Source: Oscillospiraceae bacterium (GTDB taxonomy: Bacteria > Bacillota > Clostridia > Oscillospirales > Ruminococcaceae). Taken from it: a stretch of DNA of 64,000 nucleotides. A program made the translations under genes and the position numbers. Position 1 is the stretch's first letter; each line of letters starts with the position of its first letter. Shown in pieces: positions 49,200-63,690 of this stretch. The stretch lies in assembly GCA_018110985.1 (NCBI GenBank), contig JAGAWT010000013.1:1-64000 (forward strand), written 5' to 3'. The notes under the pieces are model-generated. The model did not search any database. It saw only the letters and a list, made by a program, of their open reading frames with translations, and had not been told where the DNA came from.

Positions 49200-49302
49200 T
49201 ACTGATCCTTCCCCGATGCATAGACGATCTCCAAGCCCCGGATCCCTTATATTCAAGCATTTGCGGCTTGTTTCTTGTCTATACATCGGTCAGAGGTCAG
49301 TA
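49200..49302 (+). repeat. MITE-like palindromic repeat, copy 6
   Basis: 103 bp, ends TACTGATC/GGTCAGTA, flanked by TTA on both sides. The right TTA is the reverse complement of the TAA stop codon of the nucleotidyltransferase gene. The most diverged copy (CCCCGATGCATAGAC in one arm). Confidence 0.83.
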
Positions 49303-50406
49303 TTACCTCTTTGCTTCCCTTAGCACCTTTGCTTCTTTTTTGAACCGTCCCGACCTGACAGCTCGGAATATGCGGTAGAACGGGAGAAGAGGCAGGAGTA
49401 TCTTATGCTTGTAGAAAAGCGGGTACATAGCTGCAAAGGAAATGTACCTCGGATCCTTGCGGCTTACCGGCACAGAGAAGCGATCCAGCATATAACCGAG
49501 CTTGCTGTATTTGTTACGGTGGATCTTGTTTTCCACGCTGTGCTGTATCGTACCGTAGGTGCCTGACGAAAGAATGTAATCAAGCATTTCACGATCGTCC
49601 GGTGTAAGCGTTTCTCCCGAAAAAAGGTGCAGAGAAAGGGAACGGTTTTTCTCTTCAAAATCCCTTATGCCGATCTTTTCCGATTCGGCTGCTGTATATT
49701 CTGTATCAAGGGGCTGAGCTTTCAGGTACACATAGGTGTCAAGCAGAGAGCGAAGCCCCGTTCCCGCTACGGTATAGTGCTTGTATTCATGGGCGGTCAT
49801 GTACAGGTAGAAGTCTTCCGGTGTAAAGTATTGGGCATATCCCCTGTCTTTTTTCAGCCTGCTTTCCACATGGTCATAATACTCGTAAAGCGCCCTGTCA
49901 TGACTCATACCGAACAGTGCCCTGTGCATCTCAAAGTTCAGTGAGGGCTTTTTGAAGTACACATCATGAACGCCTGCTCCGAATTTATTCGCTGTAAAGC
50001 CCATGTCTTCCATGACAGCTTTCACATCATCGGCACGGGAAGCATCAAACAGGATATCATGATCGGCAAATTCCCTCATCCCGTATTTGGGATAAAGGTT
50101 TTTCAGAACTGCGCCTTTCAGCGGCATATACCAGATACCCGCCCCCTCAAGACTGCTCCTTATCCTGCTCCATGCCTTGTCAAAAAGAGCCGTTTTGCGT
50201 ATGGCAGCAGCGATGGCACTGTCCGATATCTTATCCTTATATCCTGCCGATACCAGTGCGTAGGATACGGCGGCATTTATCAGATGACGTGAGGCAAGCC
50301 TGTGGACCGCTTCAAGATCCATGCTCTCCACCCGCTTCTTTTCCGGAGCCCTGTCATTTACCGCACAGGCTGCCAGATAGATCACGTCCTCCGCTGTTTT
50401 GTTCAT
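49303..50406 (-). CDS. nucleotidyltransferase family protein (NTP_transf_5-like)
   Basis: 367 aa. The motif MPLKGAVLKNLYPKYGMREF, followed by ADHDILFD (Asp115, Asp117, Asp121), matches the uncharacterised nucleotidyltransferase family (PF14907) found beside PqqD, HPr-kinase-like and ABC genes in peptide-modification clusters. By fold it would transfer a nucleotidyl group to a peptide or small molecule. Last gene of the RiPP operon; its ATG overlaps the ABC stop, and its own stop is the target duplication of a MITE-like repeat. Confidence 0.85.
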   Translation of the reverse strand: MNKTAEDVIYLAACAVNDRAPEKKRVESMDLEAVHRLASRHLINAAVSYALVSAGYKDKISDSAIAAAIRKTALFDKAWSRIRSSLEGAGIWYMPLKGAVLKNLYPKYGMREFADHDILFDASRADDVKAVMEDMGFTANKFGAGVHDVYFKKPSLNFEMHRALFGMSHDRALYEYYDHVESRLKKDRGYAQYFTPEDFYLYMTAHEYKHYTVAGTGLRSLLDTYVYLKAQPLDTEYTAAESEKIGIRDFEEKNRSLSLHLFSGETLTPDDREMLDYILSSGTYGTIQHSVENKIHRNKYSKLGYMLDRFSVPVSRKDPRYISFAAMYPLFYKHKILLPLLPFYRIFRAVRSGRFKKEAKVLREAKR

Positions 50407-52043
50407 AAGCACCTGACCCCGCTCTCCGAAAATTCAAGCACCCTGTCGCAAACAGACAGTGCTGCCTTTCTGTGTGTCACGATGATGACCGTTTTGTCTG
50501 TCAATGTTTTCAGGTTTTCCAGCAGCTTTCGCTCTGTGCTCTCATCCAGCGCACTTGTGGATTCATCAAGGAGCAGGATGGGAGCATCCGCATATATGGC
50601 ACGGGCAACTGCGATGCGCTGCATCTGACCCTCCGACAGACCTGAACCGTGTTCACCCAGCTTTGTGTCAAAATTATCCACAAACTCATCCGCACACGCC
50701 AGAGTCAGGGCATTTTTCAGCTTCTGCTCGTCGTATTCTTCCGCAAAGCAGACTACTTCCCGTATCGTGCCGTTCATCAGAGCATTTCCCTGTGGGACAT
50801 ATGCAAAGAGACTGCGGTGGAAAGCCGTAAGCTCCTGCCCGTCTATGAACCTCTCCCCGCTGTCCGGTGTGTACATACACATCAGGAGCTTCAGCACAGT
50901 GGATTTTCCGCAGCCGCTGTGCCCCACAAATGCCACTGTCTCTCCTCTGTATATCTCAAGATCAGCATTTTTCAGGACTGTGGGTGCTTCATCTTTCTTA
51001 TAGCCGAATGATACATTCCTGAGCCCCAAGGACTTAAATTTGCTGCCGTAGTAGCTTTGCATCGTCTTTTTATCCGCAGCAGGCAAGTCGTCGCCATATG
51101 CTTCAACTTCTTTCAGTCTTTCCGCCGATGCGGTCATTGCATAGAAACGGGGAAGGTAACCCGAAATACCTGCAAAGGGCCCCTGAACCTGACCGATAAG
51201 CTGCATAACGGCTGTCAGTGTGCCGTAGGTGACACGACCGGTCATTATGCCGTGGGCACAGTACACCCCGCCTATAAGATACATCCCCTGCATGGCTGCA
51301 CCGAACCCTATATTCGCAAAATTTGAAAAGCGGTTTCTTCTCAGCCGAGCCCTTTTATGCTCCTCCATTGCCGACTCTGCGCCTTCATCGGTCATCTTTT
51401 CGGCAGAAAAGGCTTTTATGACCATCAGGGATGATATGCGTTCCTGCAAGAATACCCGCAGCTGTCCGTCGCTCTCCTGTATGTTCTTATGCAGGCGTTT
51501 GAGCACACCTCGAAAAGCATAGGTAAGTATCACCATGCCTATCCCGCCCGGCACAAGGATATATGCAAACCAGCTGTCAAGTGCGATTATCATAACAAGA
51601 GCCGAGATCAGGCGGACGACAGTTCCCGCAAGTCCCGGCAGTATCTCCACCGCTCCGCCCGCAACGACGGTAGTATCGTTTGTCAGGCGGTTTATCCATT
51701 CGGCGGTATGGGTAGAGCTGACAGCATCGTATTCCTTGTGCAGTATATTGTCAAGCAGCCTGCGTTTGAGGGTGTTCTCCAGATCCGCCTTGGCAAGTTC
51801 GTGCAGCCAGCGTATAACAGCATTTACTGTAAGCTGTATAAGAACGAGCCCTATGATAAGAACTACATTGTGGACGAAAGACACACTGTCCTTTCCCACT
51901 GCGCTGTCTACTATGGCACGAAAAATAAGGGCATAGACTACTCCTATTATCCCTGCTGCACCCTGTATCAGAGTAAGAGCAAGGATATATCCCTTCTTTC
52001 GCCCGGTCACCTGCCAAAGCCAGGAGATCGTCTTGTTCTTCAT
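50403..52043 (-). CDS. ABC transporter, fused membrane and ATPase domains (peptide exporter)
   Basis: 546 aa. Residues about 15-300 form a six-helix exporter domain. Residues about 330-546 are the ATPase with Walker A GHSGCGKST, signature LSEGQ and Walker B ILLLDE. There is no N-terminal C39 peptidase domain, so leader removal must be done by another enzyme, plausibly the S26 protein encoded just upstream. The ATG at 52043 overlaps that gene's stop (ATGA). It likely exports the modified peptide of this operon. Confidence 0.9.
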   Translation of the reverse strand: MKNKTISWLWQVTGRKKGYILALTLIQGAAGIIGVVYALIFRAIVDSAVGKDSVSFVHNVVLIIGLVLIQLTVNAVIRWLHELAKADLENTLKRRLLDNILHKEYDAVSSTHTAEWINRLTNDTTVVAGGAVEILPGLAGTVVRLISALVMIIALDSWFAYILVPGGIGMVILTYAFRGVLKRLHKNIQESDGQLRVFLQERISSLMVIKAFSAEKMTDEGAESAMEEHKRARLRRNRFSNFANIGFGAAMQGMYLIGGVYCAHGIMTGRVTYGTLTAVMQLIGQVQGPFAGISGYLPRFYAMTASAERLKEVEAYGDDLPAADKKTMQSYYGSKFKSLGLRNVSFGYKKDEAPTVLKNADLEIYRGETVAFVGHSGCGKSTVLKLLMCMYTPDSGERFIDGQELTAFHRSLFAYVPQGNALMNGTIREVVCFAEEYDEQKLKNALTLACADEFVDNFDTKLGEHGSGLSEGQMQRIAVARAIYADAPILLLDESTSALDESTERKLLENLKTLTDKTVIIVTHRKAALSVCDRVLEFSESGVRCL

Positions 52044-52504
52044 GTTTCTCCCTTCCCAAGCAGCCGCTTGAGAAGCGGCAGTATCCCCATTCTGCGGGCA
52101 GCGGAAACTGCAATGCGCCTTGAGCGGGAGCAAAAGCGCCTCAGCGGATAAATGATATCCCAGAAGCGGACATACAGCAGGTATGGCCAATCCGAAACAT
52201 CGTACTGTCTGCCTTTCCTCCGAAAGCCTGTCAGCACACCGATAACGGCACTGTCGGGGACCTTTTCAAGAGAAAAGGTGTTATCCCCTCGGATAAGGTA
52301 ATGGTCGCCCTTGTCTTCCATCACACGGTGGAGAACATAGTTTTCGCCCCGCCTGTACAGTGCCACATCATATTTTTTAAGACGGCATACAGGGACACGG
52401 ATAGTCACTGTGTCCCTGTTCTGCCGCAGCATTGGCTCCATGCTCACGCCACGGGTCTTGTAGACCAGACAGCCGTCACGAGCGAGGAGTTCTTCAAACT
52501 TCAT
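52040..52504 (-). CDS. S24/S26-family peptidase, ER/SipW-like Ser-His type
   Basis: 154 aa. Nucleophile Ser21 in RGVSMEPML and His59 in YVLHRV replace the Ser-Lys dyad of ordinary bacterial signal peptidases, as in SipW and archaeal/ER enzymes. RGDNTFS is the following conserved box. There is no N-terminal membrane anchor; the C-terminal WPYLLYVRFWDIIYPL may associate with the membrane. In this operon it could remove the leader of the precursor peptides. That role is inference from context. Confidence 0.8.
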   Translation of the reverse strand: MKFEELLARDGCLVYKTRGVSMEPMLRQNRDTVTIRVPVCRLKKYDVALYRRGENYVLHRVMEDKGDHYLIRGDNTFSLEKVPDSAVIGVLTGFRRKGRQYDVSDWPYLLYVRFWDIIYPLRRFCSRSRRIAVSAARRMGILPLLKRLLGKGET

Positions 52505-52516
52505 TTTAACACCACA

Positions 52517-52651
52517 TTACCAATCGGGTTCATTATTGTCCTGATGATCACAGGTACAAGTATCGGGAGTACAGCTTGTGATTATGATGTCATCGCTGTT
52601 TAACTTGATGACTTCGATCTCGGGTCTCAGGTACTTCTCAGTGCCCCCCAT
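52517..52651 (-). CDS. candidate RiPP precursor peptide 2
   Basis: 44 aa. Leader includes KYLRPEIEVIKLNSDDIIIT; C-terminal core has three Cys in SCTPDTCTCDHQ, then an acidic tail DNNEPDW. The leader closely matches that of precursor 1 (Y-x-x-PEIE, a run of acids, then TS). The ATG at 52651 has a weak GTGAG site; a GTG three codons earlier (52660) is possible. It lies between the PqqD and S26 peptidase genes on the same strand, where leader-binding and processing factors are encoded. Confidence 0.75.
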   Translation of the reverse strand: MGGTEKYLRPEIEVIKLNSDDIIITSCTPDTCTCDHQDNNEPDW

Positions 52652-52683
52652 TTTGCTCACGGAAATTTAACATTCTGTCCATA

Positions 52684-52947
52684 TCATTTATCCTCCAGTG
52701 CATTGATACCCCTAAGGGTCTTTATTACCTCCGCCACATCGGCGGTGATGGTATTGCGGTCTGCGTCATACTTTGCGCACATCTTGTCTACGATAGCTTC
52801 CTCTGTGGTCTCCTCTTTAAGGCAGTCCACGATGAAAGCAGCAGTCTTGTTGCTGCGCACTATGCCGCTGAATGCTTCGGCACCCACGGGCACGAGAAAT
52901 TGTGTGTCATCTATGTCCTGAGTAATAAAATCCGATCTAAGTTTCAT
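52684..52947 (-). CDS. PqqD-like RiPP recognition element
   Basis: 87 aa, a stand-alone PqqD fold: a three-strand start (FITQDIDDTQFLVPVG), the SNKTAAFIVDCL helix and an EAIVDKMCAKYDAD helix. In known pathways this domain binds the precursor leader and delivers it to the modifying enzyme. AAAAGGAG precedes the ATG. Flanked on both sides by the two candidate precursors, which strongly supports their assignment. Confidence 0.9.
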   Translation of the reverse strand: MKLRSDFITQDIDDTQFLVPVGAEAFSGIVRSNKTAAFIVDCLKEETTEEAIVDKMCAKYDADRNTITADVAEVIKTLRGINALEDK

Positions 52948-52990
52948 GCTGTTCTCCTTTTATTTTGATCCCGAAAAGTCACAAAAAACA

Positions 52991-53095
52991 CTATTCGTAT
53001 GTCCATCCATCACAGTTTTGACAGTTGCTTGTAAGGATGGTATCCTCCTTTTCAAGCTCAACGATCTCTATTTCAGGCTTGGTATACTGTTCCAT
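52991..53095 (-). CDS. candidate RiPP precursor peptide 1
   Basis: 34 aa. Leader YTKPEIEIVELEKEDTILTS, core NCQNCDGWTYE with a CxxC pair and two aromatic residues. AAAGGAG lies 8 nt before the ATG, and the gene starts 5 bp after the glycosyltransferase stop. Residues PEIE(I/V), the acidic stretch and the terminal TS are shared with precursor 2, while the cores differ. Candidate modifications are Cys-linked thioethers made by the radical SAM enzyme. Confidence 0.8.
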   Translation of the reverse strand: MEQYTKPEIEIVELEKEDTILTSNCQNCDGWTYE

Positions 53096-53100
53096 AACAT

Positions 53101-54066
53101 TCACTCCTTTTCTTTGGTTTCATCATTCACAGTCATGTTACCGGCAGAGTCTGCTCTCCATCCCCTTTGTATGCAATAGCTATGAAAAAATCGTTTATCG
53201 AACCGCAGTACCCTGAAAGCATTTCTCTCATGTACTTCCAGCCCTTCGGTGCTGCCTTCCCAGGAAGATACTTGATCATACGCCCTGCGGTAGAGCGGGT
53301 CATCCGACGGTGAGATGTGCATCAAAAACCGCAGGGATTCCCGCAGCATCCTCTGCTGAAGCTTTTCTTCGGGAAAGCCGAAAGACCGCAGATCATCTGT
53401 TTTTTGAAGATTTGCTTTATAAAGATCCCTGTACAGCACCTCATCCTTCGTTTCCGAAATGCTGCCTTTGCGCTTTTGATAATAATACAGTTTGTCATCC
53501 AGACAAACTATCTTCCCGGCTTTATACACCAGCTTATGGGTAGTAGCAGTGTCTTCGGCTATCTGCCCCACAGGATAACGTATGCCGCTGAACAGTGTTT
53601 TGTGATACAGCTTGTTCCATACGGCGGAGTATCCGTGCTCCACTGCGGCCTCCGCAGATATAATGCCTTTTGGCAGCGGTTCTCTTATCACGGCATTTCC
53701 GTGGATATCTATGATAGTCATATCAAAGACTGCAAGATCCGCATTCTCTTTTTCGGCATTCTCCAGAGGCAGTCTGCAAAAATCCGGAGACACACGGTCA
53801 TCGGAATCCACAAACATTATCCATTCTCCGGCAGCCATTTCTATACCAAGGTTGCGGGCAGCACTGAGCCCATGGTTTTCGGTATGGATCACCCTGATGC
53901 GGCCGTCCTTTTTGCAGTAGTCATCACAGATCTCCGAGCTGCCGTCTGTTGAGCCGTCGTCCACAAGTATTATCTCCAGATCCCTGAAGGTCTGGGACAA
54001 TATACTGTCCAGACACCGGACTAAATAGGGTCTTACATTGTAGACCGGAACTATGACACTTATCAT
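53101..54066 (-). CDS. family 2 glycosyltransferase
   Basis: 321 aa. GT-A fold: VSVIVPVYN-like start, LVDDGSTDGS (residues 35-44), and the metal-binding MFVDSDD (residues 84-90). The C-terminal half is typical of bacterial polysaccharide GT2 enzymes. Cytoplasmic, using a nucleotide sugar. Placed between the radical SAM gene and precursor 1, it could glycosylate the peptide; involvement in an unrelated glycan is the alternative. Confidence 0.88.
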   Translation of the reverse strand: MISVIVPVYNVRPYLVRCLDSILSQTFRDLEIILVDDGSTDGSSEICDDYCKKDGRIRVIHTENHGLSAARNLGIEMAAGEWIMFVDSDDRVSPDFCRLPLENAEKENADLAVFDMTIIDIHGNAVIREPLPKGIISAEAAVEHGYSAVWNKLYHKTLFSGIRYPVGQIAEDTATTHKLVYKAGKIVCLDDKLYYYQKRKGSISETKDEVLYRDLYKANLQKTDDLRSFGFPEEKLQQRMLRESLRFLMHISPSDDPLYRRAYDQVSSWEGSTEGLEVHERNAFRVLRFDKRFFHSYCIQRGWRADSAGNMTVNDETKEKE

Positions 54067-54087: not shown

Positions 54088-55407
54088 TCAGCAAACAGCC
54101 TCTTCCTCGTCGCTGCCGCCGCTTTCCTTCTCTTCTGCCAGGCGTTTGAGATCGGCTTTGACCATAAGTTCCCGCACTTCACGGCAATGAGTATCATAAA
54201 CCGGACAGGCGGAAAAGTTTGTGCAGTCGGGGAGGAAAGGACAATCCCTGCACTTCTCCCGTGTACGGTCCGTGCGGCAGAAGTCCTTTTTGGCTTTCTC
54301 ATCCGTTACGCCCTGTCGGATATTTCCGAACCTGCTCTCCTTCGGGCAGTGCTCGCAGGGGTACAGGCTGCCGTCGGGAGCGATGACCACACTGCCGCCG
54401 TCTGCCATGCAATGATTGATACGAAAAGAGCGTGTTAAACCCATGAAGCGTGAATTCCTGAACCCTGCATCAGTGATGAGCTCATAGGCATCCCTTATCT
54501 TAGTCCATATTTCGATATCATTTTCGCCCATGCGCACTTCATTAAGAGGTGCAAGGTACACGCTGACATTATCTTTGTTCTTTATCCTATCCCGCATATC
54601 CGAAAGGAACTCGGAAACAGTGTCAAAATTGCCTTCATCCACGTTGCAGCGGATGACCACCTTTATGCCGGCCTCGCTCATCATGCTGACCGATCCCATT
54701 ACCCTGTTATAATAGCCTTTGTCCTTGTAGTAGCACTTTCGGCGCAGATATTCACTCTCCGCACCGTCCATGGATATCTGTATGTGGCGAAGCCGCCAGT
54801 TTCCCCTCATTTTCCCGATGACCTTCGGGGTGATAAGGCTCCCGTTGGAGATCATGGAGCTTTTGTACTCGATACCCGCTTTTCTCAATCCGTCACAGAT
54901 ATAGTCGATGATCTTTGTGCCCATAAGGGGCTCACCGCCAAACCATCCCAGTTTCACCTTGTCCCCACGGTGAGTGTCCAAGATGTAACGGACGGCTTGC
55001 TCTGCGGTCTCTTCAGTCATGGATATGGGCTTCATGCCCTCTTCGTAGCAGTATGTACACCGTGCATTGCAGCCGAAGGTGGGCAGTATGGTATACCCAC
55101 TTATGCCCTTTTTCCCGGCATAAGCCCTCATGACAGCGGATATATGGCAGTAATAGGCGCACTCATCCTTTCCCTCGGGGACGAGGAACTGTGCCTTTAT
55201 CAGGTCGTCGAAGCCTTCTCCTGCCGCAGCAGACGCAGGGAGGGCTCCCTCGATACACTGCTTTGTCATATTCTGGAACAGGTATTGCTTCCCGCCCTGT
55301 TCAAAAGGAATGACATACATGGACGGCACATATCTTACACCCGCTTCAGGCCGTACAGGGGGCAGCAGCTTTGTCAAAGTCTTATCGGGACTGTGTATCT
55401 CAACCAT
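54088..55407 (-). CDS. radical SAM peptide maturase with SPASM domain
   Basis: 439 aa. An N-terminal leader-binding-like region (FEQGGKQYLFQNMTKQCIEG), then the radical SAM barrel with CNARCTYC (Cys113, 117, 120) binding the SAM cluster and WFGGEPLM downstream. The C-terminal SPASM part (CMADGG...LYPCEHCPKES...CRDCPFLPDCTNFSACP) holds Cys for auxiliary Fe-S clusters. Such enzymes install thioether or carbon-carbon crosslinks in ribosomal peptides. The ATG at 55407 is chosen for GAGGTG; a longer frame would overlap the HPr-kinase gene. Confidence 0.92.
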   Translation of the reverse strand: MVEIHSPDKTLTKLLPPVRPEAGVRYVPSMYVIPFEQGGKQYLFQNMTKQCIEGALPASAAAGEGFDDLIKAQFLVPEGKDECAYYCHISAVMRAYAGKKGISGYTILPTFGCNARCTYCYEEGMKPISMTEETAEQAVRYILDTHRGDKVKLGWFGGEPLMGTKIIDYICDGLRKAGIEYKSSMISNGSLITPKVIGKMRGNWRLRHIQISMDGAESEYLRRKCYYKDKGYYNRVMGSVSMMSEAGIKVVIRCNVDEGNFDTVSEFLSDMRDRIKNKDNVSVYLAPLNEVRMGENDIEIWTKIRDAYELITDAGFRNSRFMGLTRSFRINHCMADGGSVVIAPDGSLYPCEHCPKESRFGNIRQGVTDEKAKKDFCRTDRTREKCRDCPFLPDCTNFSACPVYDTHCREVRELMVKADLKRLAEEKESGGSDEEEAVC

Positions 55408-55415
55408 AAAGCACC

Positions 55416-56189
55416 TCAGAAAGTATTTCCGCCACAATGATGATCTGCCCCGTAAGAGCCGACTAAGCCCTCATAGGCTGTCACAGCCGCAGACGGCTCC
55501 GTGTTGCAGCCCAGCCTGTATAAGCCGACTGTGTCCAGCAGCCTTTTCTCCATGTTCATGATCCTCATCATGATGACGGGGTCTTTTGAGCTGAAACACT
55601 GCTTCATCAGCACGGGAAAGGCATCCGCTCCGCACATCGGAGAAACACGGTTTATTTCGCTGCGCTCCAGACTGACAACGGCTTTCAAGGGAGCGGAGGT
55701 GTTGGAGCTGAGGCGGTGCTTTCCATCCCATGGGGTGCCGCAGACTCTGACACCCTCCTCCGTGAACCTCAGCATGGGCTTGTCATCGTTTATCATCTGC
55801 ACTCTCTCACCGAAAACCTCTCTCCAGAGCCTTGAATGAGTGCTTTTGCCCGTTCCGCTCTTAGCGGTGAAGATAAATGCCTCTCCGTCCATACACAGGG
55901 CGGAGCCGTGCATCAGGAGCACATCGTATTCCGTCAGCTTTTCCGCCAGCAGACTGTGGATGGCATTATTCTCCAGATATCCGTCCGGACGGCGGCGCTT
56001 AGGATGCCCTTCCGCTTCGTCTGTCCTGTCAAAGTCTGCCTGTATGCGGGAAAGATCCTCTTCACCGGGTTCGACGGTAAACAGGGGTTCAAGGTCGGTT
56101 ATGTAATCCGCAAGGAATTCCCTGTTCTCCTCAAACCTGCACCGTATCCGCAGCGGAACTCCCGCAAGGCTGATATTAAATTCCTCCAC
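55416..56189 (-). CDS. HPr kinase-like (HprK-related) protein
   Basis: 257 aa. P-loop AKSGTGKST (residues 109-117) preceded by LLMHGSALCMDG, as in the HPr kinase/phosphorylase C-domain branch that occurs in lasso and other RiPP clusters, where homologues phosphorylate the peptide or a carrier. The N-terminal HPrK regulatory domain is absent. The GTG start has GAGGA 7 nt upstream and directly abuts the stop codon of a small leader frame. First full-size gene of the operon. Confidence 0.85.
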   Translation of the reverse strand: MEEFNISLAGVPLRIRCRFEENREFLADYITDLEPLFTVEPGEEDLSRIQADFDRTDEAEGHPKRRRPDGYLENNAIHSLLAEKLTEYDVLLMHGSALCMDGEAFIFTAKSGTGKSTHSRLWREVFGERVQMINDDKPMLRFTEEGVRVCGTPWDGKHRLSSNTSAPLKAVVSLERSEINRVSPMCGADAFPVLMKQCFSSKDPVIMMRIMNMEKRLLDTVGLYRLGCNTEPSAAVTAYEGLVGSYGADHHCGGNTF

Positions 56190-56650: not shown

Positions 56651-57610
56651 TTACTTTTCCTTTGCGGACACGATATCGGCTCTTGTGACCTTTGTCCACT
56701 TACCGTTTACATATGCCTTAACTGCGTAGCCGGTGTCGCCTTCCTTTTGCTTTATCTTCACAGCCGTTTTAGATGTGACAGATACCTTTTTCAGCTTTCC
56801 GTTCATGCGGTACACGGCATATTTTTCGGCACCTGGCACAGCTTTCCACCTGAGGGTTACCTTTCCGTCCTTAGCGGCGGCTGTGACAACAGGTTTATAA
56901 TAGACCTTCACATCCGCACTTCCGGAGGAAGATAGCTGTTCGGTACCGTTGACCACACAGCGCACAAGGAACGAATGTTCCCTGCCGTTTGCAGCTTTCT
57001 TTACGGTGTATGAGGCAGATGAAGTGGTCTTCAGCCTTTCATAGGCGCCATCGGTGTAATAATACACGATATAACTGTCTGCACCCTCCACACTGTTCCA
57101 GCTGAGAGTTATATTTCCATTGCTGTCGGCAGAAGCAGAGACAGTCAGCTCTCCGGATAATGAAGGCTTGTACACTTCGGACTTATCCTCTATGTTTTCG
57201 GTCTCCTTGGCAGTATCGGTATTCTGCACGATCTCATAAGAGGGTTTATATGTAGTTGAGGGAGCAGTCGTCACACTTCCTCCTGTGTAGCTTGTCGAAG
57301 GGTAGGAAGGAGTCGTCTGTACCGGCACGGGAACAGGAACGGGCGTGGGAGTCGGTACAGGTACCGGAGTAGGATCCGGGGTCGGTGTTGGGGTCGGTGT
57401 AGGTGTAGGTGCAGGGGCAGGTGTAGGTGCAGGTTCGGGATCGGGTGCGGGGACGGGAGCTGTTCCCTGCTGTCCGCCGCTTTCACTGCTTCCCCCCTTA
57501 TCGTCATCTATAAAGATGATAGGAAGATCAACAGCAGATACATTTACAGGAATGGTGCTTATGGTGAGCAATGTAAGTATAAAGGCGGCAGACCTTATTA
57601 TTCTTTTCAT
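56651..57610 (-). CDS. secreted protein with Pro/Thr stalk and two Fn3-like domains
   Basis: 319 aa. Signal peptide 1-26, short acidic stretch, then a 65-residue Pro-rich stalk (PAPTPTPTPTP pattern). Residues about 150-235 and 236-315 are fibronectin type III-like domains (TLSWNSVEGADSYIVYYY; VTLRWKAVPGAEKYAVYRM). No anchor or catalytic domain; likely a secreted or wall-associated binding protein. GGAGG precedes the ATG. It lies upstream of the RiPP operon but has its own promoter and terminator. Confidence 0.8.
   Translation of the reverse strand: MKRIIRSAAFILTLLTISTIPVNVSAVDLPIIFIDDDKGGSSESGGQQGTAPVPAPDPEPAPTPAPAPTPTPTPTPTPDPTPVPVPTPTPVPVPVPVQTTPSYPSTSYTGGSVTTAPSTTYKPSYEIVQNTDTAKETENIEDKSEVYKPSLSGELTVSASADSNGNITLSWNSVEGADSYIVYYYTDGAYERLKTTSSASYTVKKAANGREHSFLVRCVVNGTEQLSSSGSADVKVYYKPVVTAAAKDGKVTLRWKAVPGAEKYAVYRMNGKLKKVSVTSKTAVKIKQKEGDTGYAVKAYVNGKWTKVTRADIVSAKEK
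57319..57465 (-). repeat. hexanucleotide-rich tandem repeat coding the Pro stalk
   Basis: Variations of GTxGGx (plus reading) repeat about 24 times, encoding alternating Pro with Thr, Val, Ala or Asp. In-frame length variation is expected. Confidence 0.75.
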
Positions 57611-62480: not shown

Positions 62481-62658
62481 TGCTTTTCCCTCAAGATCGT
62501 TTTACTGATAAGGCATCGGATATCTTCCTTGTCGCTCAACTGCCGTGTAATCGGTTTATCTGTTGATAAATACCGTATGCCGCACTCAGGATATGTTCCT
62601 TTCCTGCCGGGGCTCAAATGACATTATATATCCAAAAGCAAAGAAAGTCAACGAATAA

Positions 62659-62761
62659 TACTAATTCTTTCTCGATGTATAGACGATCTCCAAGCCTCAA
62701 ATCCCTTATATTCAAGCATTTGCGGCTTGTTTCTTGTCTATACATCGGTCAGAAATTAGTA
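62659..62761 (+). repeat. MITE-like palindromic repeat, copy 7
   Basis: 103 bp, ends TACTAATT/AATTAGTA, flanked by TAA on both sides. The only copy in a divergent intergenic region (between AraC and TetR genes) and without a terminator stem beside it. Confidence 0.86.
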
Positions 62762-62969: not shown

Positions 62970-63587
62970 ATGAGCGACAATGAAAGCAAGGCAAAGCTGA
63001 TAGAATGTGCCAAAAAGGAATTTCTGGAAAAGGGCTTTGCAAAAGCATCGCTGAGAAAAATAACCTCAGATGCGGGGCTCACCACGGGAGCTGTTTATTT
63101 CTTTTTCAGGGATAAGAACGGGCTTTTCGGCGCAGTGGTGGAAGAGGCGATAGAGGGTCTGAAAAAACTGCTGACAGAACATTATGCAGATGACATGGAG
63201 GAAGATTTTTCGGAATATGTCCACGTAACAGGCGACCATGACGAACTGGCAAAGAAGCTTGTGGATCTTATCTACGATAACTACGATGTGATGATGATAC
63301 TCTTTGACAAGGCTCACGGTTCGGAATACGAGAATGTAGTAGATTCGGTCATAGCACTGCTGGAATCGGAAAACCTGAAGACGGCGGAAAAATATGCGAA
63401 AGCCTTTCCCGGAAAAAGAGTAAACAAATATATGCTCCATTACCTTTCCCATGTACAGGTGGATGCCTTTGAGCATCTTCTGAGCCATGAAAGTAACAGG
63501 GAAAGGGCGCTGGAGCATATAAAACCGGTAATGGATATGTTCATCACGACCTTTATGAATTATATACTGGAGGATGATGAGGTATAA
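62970..63587 (+). CDS. TetR/AcrR family regulator
   Basis: 205 aa. Helix-turn-helix at residues about 22-50 (FAKASLRKITSDAGLTTGAVYFFFRDKNGLFG). The ligand domain is helical and acidic. GGAGGT precedes the ATG at 62970. A large palindrome overlaps its promoter. It lies upstream of an ABC transporter operon on the same strand and likely controls it. Its TAA stop is the left duplication of a MITE-like repeat. Confidence 0.88.
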   Translation: MSDNESKAKLIECAKKEFLEKGFAKASLRKITSDAGLTTGAVYFFFRDKNGLFGAVVEEAIEGLKKLLTEHYADDMEEDFSEYVHVTGDHDELAKKLVDLIYDNYDVMMILFDKAHGSEYENVVDSVIALLESENLKTAEKYAKAFPGKRVNKYMLHYLSHVQVDAFEHLLSHESNRERALEHIKPVMDMFITTFMNYILEDDEV

Positions 63588-63690
63588 TACTAATTCTTCC
63601 TCGATGTATAGACGATCTCCAAGCCTCAGATCCCTTATATTCAAGCATTTGCGGCTTTTTTCTTGTCTGTACATCGGTCAGAAATCAGTA
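63588..63690 (+). repeat. MITE-like palindromic repeat, copy 8
   Basis: 103 bp, ends TACTAATT/AATCAGTA, flanked by TAA on both sides. The left TAA is the stop codon of the TetR gene. It separates the regulator from the ABC transporter genes downstream. Confidence 0.86.

Follow-up and report, generated by a model that had tools for sequence, protein, structure and literature searches.

A predicted RiPP cluster pairing an LPP-type core with a radical SAM/SPASM maturase in an Oscillospiraceae bacterium

The 64,000-nucleotide stretch of DNA analysed here (contig JAGAWT010000013.1, in the following called the window) encodes on its minus strand two short peptides, A and B, which we regard with a probability of about 0.8 as the precursors of a RiPP pathway that joins a biosynthetic core of the linear polyphosphorylated peptide (LPP) type to a radical SAM/SPASM maturase. 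That two short ORFs with a shared leader and different Cys-containing cores surround a PqqD gene was the original prediction, and it is borne out. Its reading of the ORFs as precursors is right in kind, since short ORFs with the same leader recur next to homologues of both the PqqD and the radical SAM gene; the prediction had named a lack of such leaders as evidence against itself, and the opposite was found in nearly all related loci. Features beyond that prediction are five more conserved genes, the LPP-type character of the cluster, an association of Cys residues with the radical SAM gene, and a frame-shifting G tract in front of B.

The precursor peptides and their gene cluster

Peptide A (52991-53095, minus strand) comprises 34 aa, and its start codon is an ATG preceded by a strong Shine-Dalgarno sequence; a GTG listed as its start overlaps the ribosome site and was dismissed. 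The full translation (53095-52991) is MEQYTKPEIEIVELEKEDTILTSNCQNCDGWTYE, with the leader MEQYTKPEIEIVELEKEDTILT(S) and the core NCQNCDGWTYE. The leader and core frame of peptide B lies at 52517-52651 on the same strand. Read from 52660 or 52651 to 52517 it translates as MSKMGGTEKYLRPEIEVIKLNSDDIIITSCTPDTCTCDHQDNNEPDW, with the leader TEKYLRPEIEVIKLNSDDIIIT(S) and the core CTPDTCTCDHQDNNEPDW. Both peptides share a leader of the form Y-x-x-PEIE...TS, and each contains Cys in its own, differing core. From the Tyr to the TS 10 of 20 positions are identical, and the cores behind the TS are unlike each other.

The proposed check by a leader HMM was carried out with a model trained on 23 leaders, exclusively from other genomes, and with all 752 ORFs of the window as target. 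The sole matches at E<10 were A (6.5e-9) and B (2.3e-4); the best E in a reversed-sequence control was 0.061. Because this external model picks A and B alone out of 752 ORFs, the likeness of their leaders exceeds chance.

All genes of the cluster are located on the minus strand. In the direction of transcription they encode an HprK-like Ser kinase (55416-56189), a radical SAM/SPASM peptide maturase (54088-55407), a GT2 glycosyltransferase (53101-54066; PF00535, E 3.3e-41), peptide A, a discrete RRE of the PqqD type with 87 aa (52684-52947; PF05402, E 3.8e-14), which thus sits between A and B, peptide B, a SEC11/SipW-like (S26) signal peptidase homologue of 154 aa (52040-52504), which is the candidate leader peptidase, an MsbA-like ABC exporter (50403-52043) with membrane (PF00664) and ATPase (PF00005) domains, in which a peptidase domain was not found, and an NTase of the LppN/PsmN type (49303-50412; PF14907, E 3.2e-36). 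The kinase contains the Walker A motif SGTGKSTH, which is invariant in the alignment, and shows an HprK/PEPCK fold in its structural model. Residues N33 and D70 of the PqqD protein are invariant across 17 homologues, as are S21, H59 and D74 of the SpI-like peptidase across 11; the match of the latter protein to TIGR02228 (E 1.9e-4) is below the cut-off of that model. The glycosyltransferase has no counterpart in the related loci and is a peculiarity of the window. Immediately upstream of the cluster a secreted-looking proline-rich protein is encoded (56651-57610, minus strand). A short sequence with the ORF reading MYRRSPSLKSLIFKHLRLVSCLYIGQ is present between genes in at least three copies (49215-49290, 62640-62760 and 63580-63690) and has the appearance of a dispersed repeat.

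When 84,980 species genomes were scanned with the radical SAM protein as query, 20 loci emerged, most of them from metagenome-assembled genomes of rumen Clostridia. Related loci repeat, completely or in part, the arrangement HprK - peptide - radical SAM - PqqD - (peptide) - S26 - ABC - NTase, and in nearly all of them short ORFs with the same leader lie between the cluster genes. Two loci (L025:3585-9176 and L028:10-6441) each carry two adjoining tandem modules of HprK - peptide - radical SAM - PqqD, the cores of which have diverged. The radical SAM protein is rare elsewhere: within the genus and about 300 family, 394 order and 391 class genomes, no close radical SAM homologue was detected beyond the window's own genome; three weaker homologues from the family (L008-L010) share 36-39% identity. 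These three and L029 were excluded from all statistics, as their leaders lack the Pro or no leader is present. The S26 protein is frequent in the window's family (45 of 298 genomes), mostly in the same cluster minus this radical SAM gene. As an add-on to this cluster, the radical SAM gene occurs mostly in rumen Clostridia. A plasmid search returned only distant radical SAM proteins, with less than 30% identity among the matches listed, and a search of PHROGs gave no match.

Peptides with the same leader are also found away from the cluster, a point against reading A and B as precursors of this pathway. A third one in the window's genome, MGKQEYISPEMEIIELDSEDVIVTSCTGYDTSIICPMNEENQG (G000:C31:72637-72768, equivalent to L004:8638-8769, minus strand), lies at a contig edge, 8.6 kb outside the window, and closely follows another gene. 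The cluster enzymes are absent from the 8.9 kb examined around it, and it may be served in trans. Further peptides of this kind lie away from any RRE gene (L086:8271-8420, L088:3716-3838, L089:2918-3016, L090:9536-9736 and L079:8519-8647), often directly downstream of large proteins of 730 to more than 1,900 aa, several of which have signal peptides and some of which carry InlB-like B repeats. The arrangement would fit a modified peptide that acts together with a surface protein. In one case (L128:5454-5996) a leader of the same type is fused in one ORF to a lipoprotein-like N-terminus, and this ORF adjoins the PqqD gene of a cluster that lacks the radical SAM gene.

Relation to LPPs and lasso peptides

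The LPP family was described by Popov et al. in 2026 and is defined by the SpI-like peptidase LppS, the discrete RRE LppB, the HprK kinase LppK, the NTP transferase LppN, an MsbA-like exporter and YxxP leaders (PMC13381572). In the test case of that study the leader is cleaved after a Thr and Ser3 is polyphosphorylated; the function of the family was unknown in the description, and radical SAM enzymes are not mentioned in its main text (PMC13381572). All five LPP gene types are present in the window, so that by its gene content the cluster minus the radical SAM gene is the LPP core set. The likeness extends to the Ser/His/Asp of the SpI-like peptidase, and to N33 and D70 of the discrete RRE, which are the counterparts of those LppB residues by which the YxxP motif is held, a match made by residue numbers and context in the paper (PMC13381572). 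The HprK-like kinase, the NTP transferase and the MsbA-like exporter agree as well, and so do the precursors, with a YxxP leader ending near a T-S and a variable core. A PDB sequence search for relatives of LppB and LppS found TbiB1 alone for the RRE and none for the peptidase.

There are also differences. The LPP product is linear and no ring-forming enzyme takes part in its synthesis, whereas the cluster described here has an added radical SAM/SPASM gene. The cores are short and contain Cys, and some precursors start behind a G tract. From the LPP leader motif YxxPxVLxHQxIxFETxxS the part YxxPx[I/M/L] and the final T-S are kept, but HQxIxFE is replaced by an acidic stretch. Since the maturase belongs to the conserved cluster, we file it as a variant of the LPP type and not as a plain member, that is, as a newly recognised kind of LPP-type pathway with a predicted radical SAM step.

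The pairing of HprK with a PF14907 NTase also resembles PsmK and PsmN from the pathway of the lasso peptide pseudomycoidin; these enzymes phosphorylate a Ser and attach hexoses to it (PMC9266682). Phosphorylated lasso peptides such as paeninodin and pseudomycoidin share with the window the HprK-like kinase, the NTase and a discrete PqqD-like B1 protein, and rumen lasso clusters are known to be accompanied by genes for HPr kinase, NTase and PqqD (PMC7533575). One could therefore suppose that the cluster makes a lasso peptide and that these are its tailoring genes, all the more as the YxxP leaders are shared. However, neither a transglutaminase-like B2 peptidase nor an asparagine-synthetase-like cyclase is among the ten cluster proteins searched, and in the window as well as in the related loci their place is occupied by the SpI-like peptidase. 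We consider a lasso product highly improbable.

For the LPP-type cluster with its radical SAM enzyme the following course of events is proposed. The PqqD protein would bind the YxxPxI part of the leader, and the radical SAM enzyme would crosslink Cys with an Asp at +3 or +4 relative to it, through a thioether bond at a non-alpha carbon. The HprK-like kinase would phosphorylate a Ser, most likely that of the TS, which is not invariant across the precursors. The SpI-like peptidase is expected to cut near the TS, and the phosphate may be decorated by the NTase; export of the product would fall to the ABC protein. In some precursor genes of the window's clade, B included, slippage at a G tract behind an ATG with a ribosome site would bring leader and core into frame or out of it, and therefore different cells would make different peptides.

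Cys-containing cores and the predicted crosslink

Precursors of clusters without the radical SAM gene were collected from the window's family with the same leader HMM. All 30 precursors beside a radical SAM gene have Cys in the core compared to 2 of 13 beside clusters lacking it (Fisher p 1.4e-8, an optimistic value, as the test ignores relatedness; the core boundaries were set by hand).

The maturase comprises the domains PF04055 and PF13186 with an invariant Cx3Cx2C motif and C-terminal Cys. Its nearest solved relative, by sequence and by fold of the model, is the ranthipeptide maturase CteB. The best NCBIfam match, TIGR04463, reaches 143 bits where 525 are needed, and the cut-offs of the PapB family (111 of 340 bits) and of the SCIFF maturase (58 of 425 bits) are missed too. 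Family membership therefore does not reveal its chemistry. Shuffling of the cores with their composition kept, which like the Fisher test ignores relatedness and uses the hand-set core boundaries, indicates that among all precursors Cys-x2-Asp (Asp at +3) is the only enriched spacing, with 25 cases seen and 7.5 expected. Within the window's clade Asp is enriched at +3 (10 versus 4.6, p 0.01) and at +4, i.e. Cys-x3-Asp (9 versus 4.3, p 0.02). Both window cores contain Cys-x3-Asp; in A it is found as CQNCD, and Cys-x2-Asp is absent there. The link made by PapB connects the Cys and the Asp of Cys-x3-Asp, and in vitro the enzyme tolerates other spacings as well (PMC9413430).

The ranthipeptides freyrasin (PapB) and thermocellin (CteB) thus resemble the window system in the SPASM radical SAM maturase with Cx3Cx2C and auxiliary Cys residues, and in the Cys-Asp spacings. 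They differ in that the window enzyme scores far under the PapB and SCIFF maturase cut-offs, that kinase, NTase and SpI-like peptidase are also encoded in the window cluster, and that its Cys-Asp bond is predicted from spacing. The Asp spacing, the precedent of PapB and the relationship to CteB point to Cys-Asp thioethers of the ranthipeptide type as the favoured product, with sactionines or other acceptors as possible alternatives. The same precursors and enzymes might indeed carry a sactionine S-Calpha bond, a thioether from Cys to Thr or Ser, or a carbon-carbon link, the Asp spacing then being due to acidic cores. An enzyme below the TIGR04463 and PapB cut-offs would fit such a modification; furthermore Thr, Ser and Gly are abundant in the cores, and several cores, among them L021b, L025b and L030b beside a radical SAM gene, have no Asp at +3 or +4. 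The composition-keeping shuffles argue against acidity as the cause, as +3 alone overall, and +3 and +4 in the window's clade, stand out, and we regard another modification as unlikely.

Poly-G tracts at the precursor starts

Peptide B was listed with a GTG or an ATG as start; at neither of them is there a Shine-Dalgarno sequence, and no in-frame start with such a sequence that reaches the leader could be identified. The only well-placed ATG with a Shine-Dalgarno sequence lies upstream (GGAGG 52692-52696, ATG 52680-52682, minus strand) and adjoins the PqqD stop. Between this ATG and the leader there is a tract of six G (52644-52649, minus strand; C6 on the plus strand), a candidate slippage site. 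Read through G6 the ATG is out of frame and yields MDRMLNFREQNGGH*, which stops after 14 aa; G5 or G8 would put it in frame with the leader. Because the sole well-placed ATG with a Shine-Dalgarno sequence reads out of frame, B is probably switched off in the DNA as sequenced.

Seven genes have a G tract just before the leader: B (G6), L011 (G8), L012 (G9), L013 (G13), L014 (G7), L027 (G6) and L087 (G8); in an eighth, in L014, the tract is interrupted. L027 and L087 are from one genome, and their ends overlap exactly over 55 nt within the radical SAM gene; they are therefore probably a single cluster split between two contigs. All seven genes have a clear Shine-Dalgarno ATG 37-50 nt upstream of the leader Tyr, which shares the leader's frame in L011 and L027 but in none of the remaining five, among them B. 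In precursor genes lacking a tract, an ordinary start immediately precedes the leader. Runs of at least eight G or C occur four times in 301 kb of radical SAM loci, each time at a precursor start, and not at all in 466 kb of loci without the radical SAM gene. A search of 20 genomes for the pattern of G6 followed by the leader found six precursor genes and one unrelated site; the reversed pattern gave no match in the same genomes. Apart from the precursors, one of the only three G8 runs found in the window's genome (G000:C17:3118-3125, equivalent to L170:1501-1508) lies about ten codons inside the ORF of an MFS-like transporter, which may be a further switching gene.

This pattern resembles that of phase-variable genes and suggests phase-variable precursors, for which nothing relevant was found in the searchable literature. 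On the other hand the tract might be no switch at all: B could be translated from the ATG at the tract edge (52651), or the tract could act as a signal at the RNA or DNA level, or have arisen through misassembly of several metagenome-assembled genomes. Most of the genomes are metagenome assemblies, and B and L012 do have an edge ATG that shares the leader's frame. With six G, the tract of B is rather short for a switch, and runs of six G or C are not rare in the window (six in 64 kb). However, the edge ATGs of B and L012 lack the Shine-Dalgarno sequence that the upstream ATG has in all seven genes, and L013b, L014b and L087 are without any leader-frame start behind the last stop. The ordinary starts of the tract-less paralogues and the position of all four long runs at precursor starts also speak for a switch, so that a tract without switching function appears somewhat doubtful.

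We tentatively suggest, at not quite even odds, the combined picture in which Cys-Asp crosslinking by the radical SAM enzyme and polyphosphorylation by HprK act on one precursor, and some of the precursor genes are poly-G contingency loci, so that one set of enzymes would produce a peptide mixture varying across the population.

The radical SAM branch suggests that the core of kinase, SpI-like peptidase and NTase is a platform able to take on crosslinking chemistry, and its short cores with a single Cys (SCTPVDVP...) would make uncomplicated substrates for testing. Should the G tracts prove to be switches, phase variation would, to judge from the literature searched, be described here for the first time in RiPP precursors, and gene callers and genome miners would miss silent precursors or assign them wrong starts.
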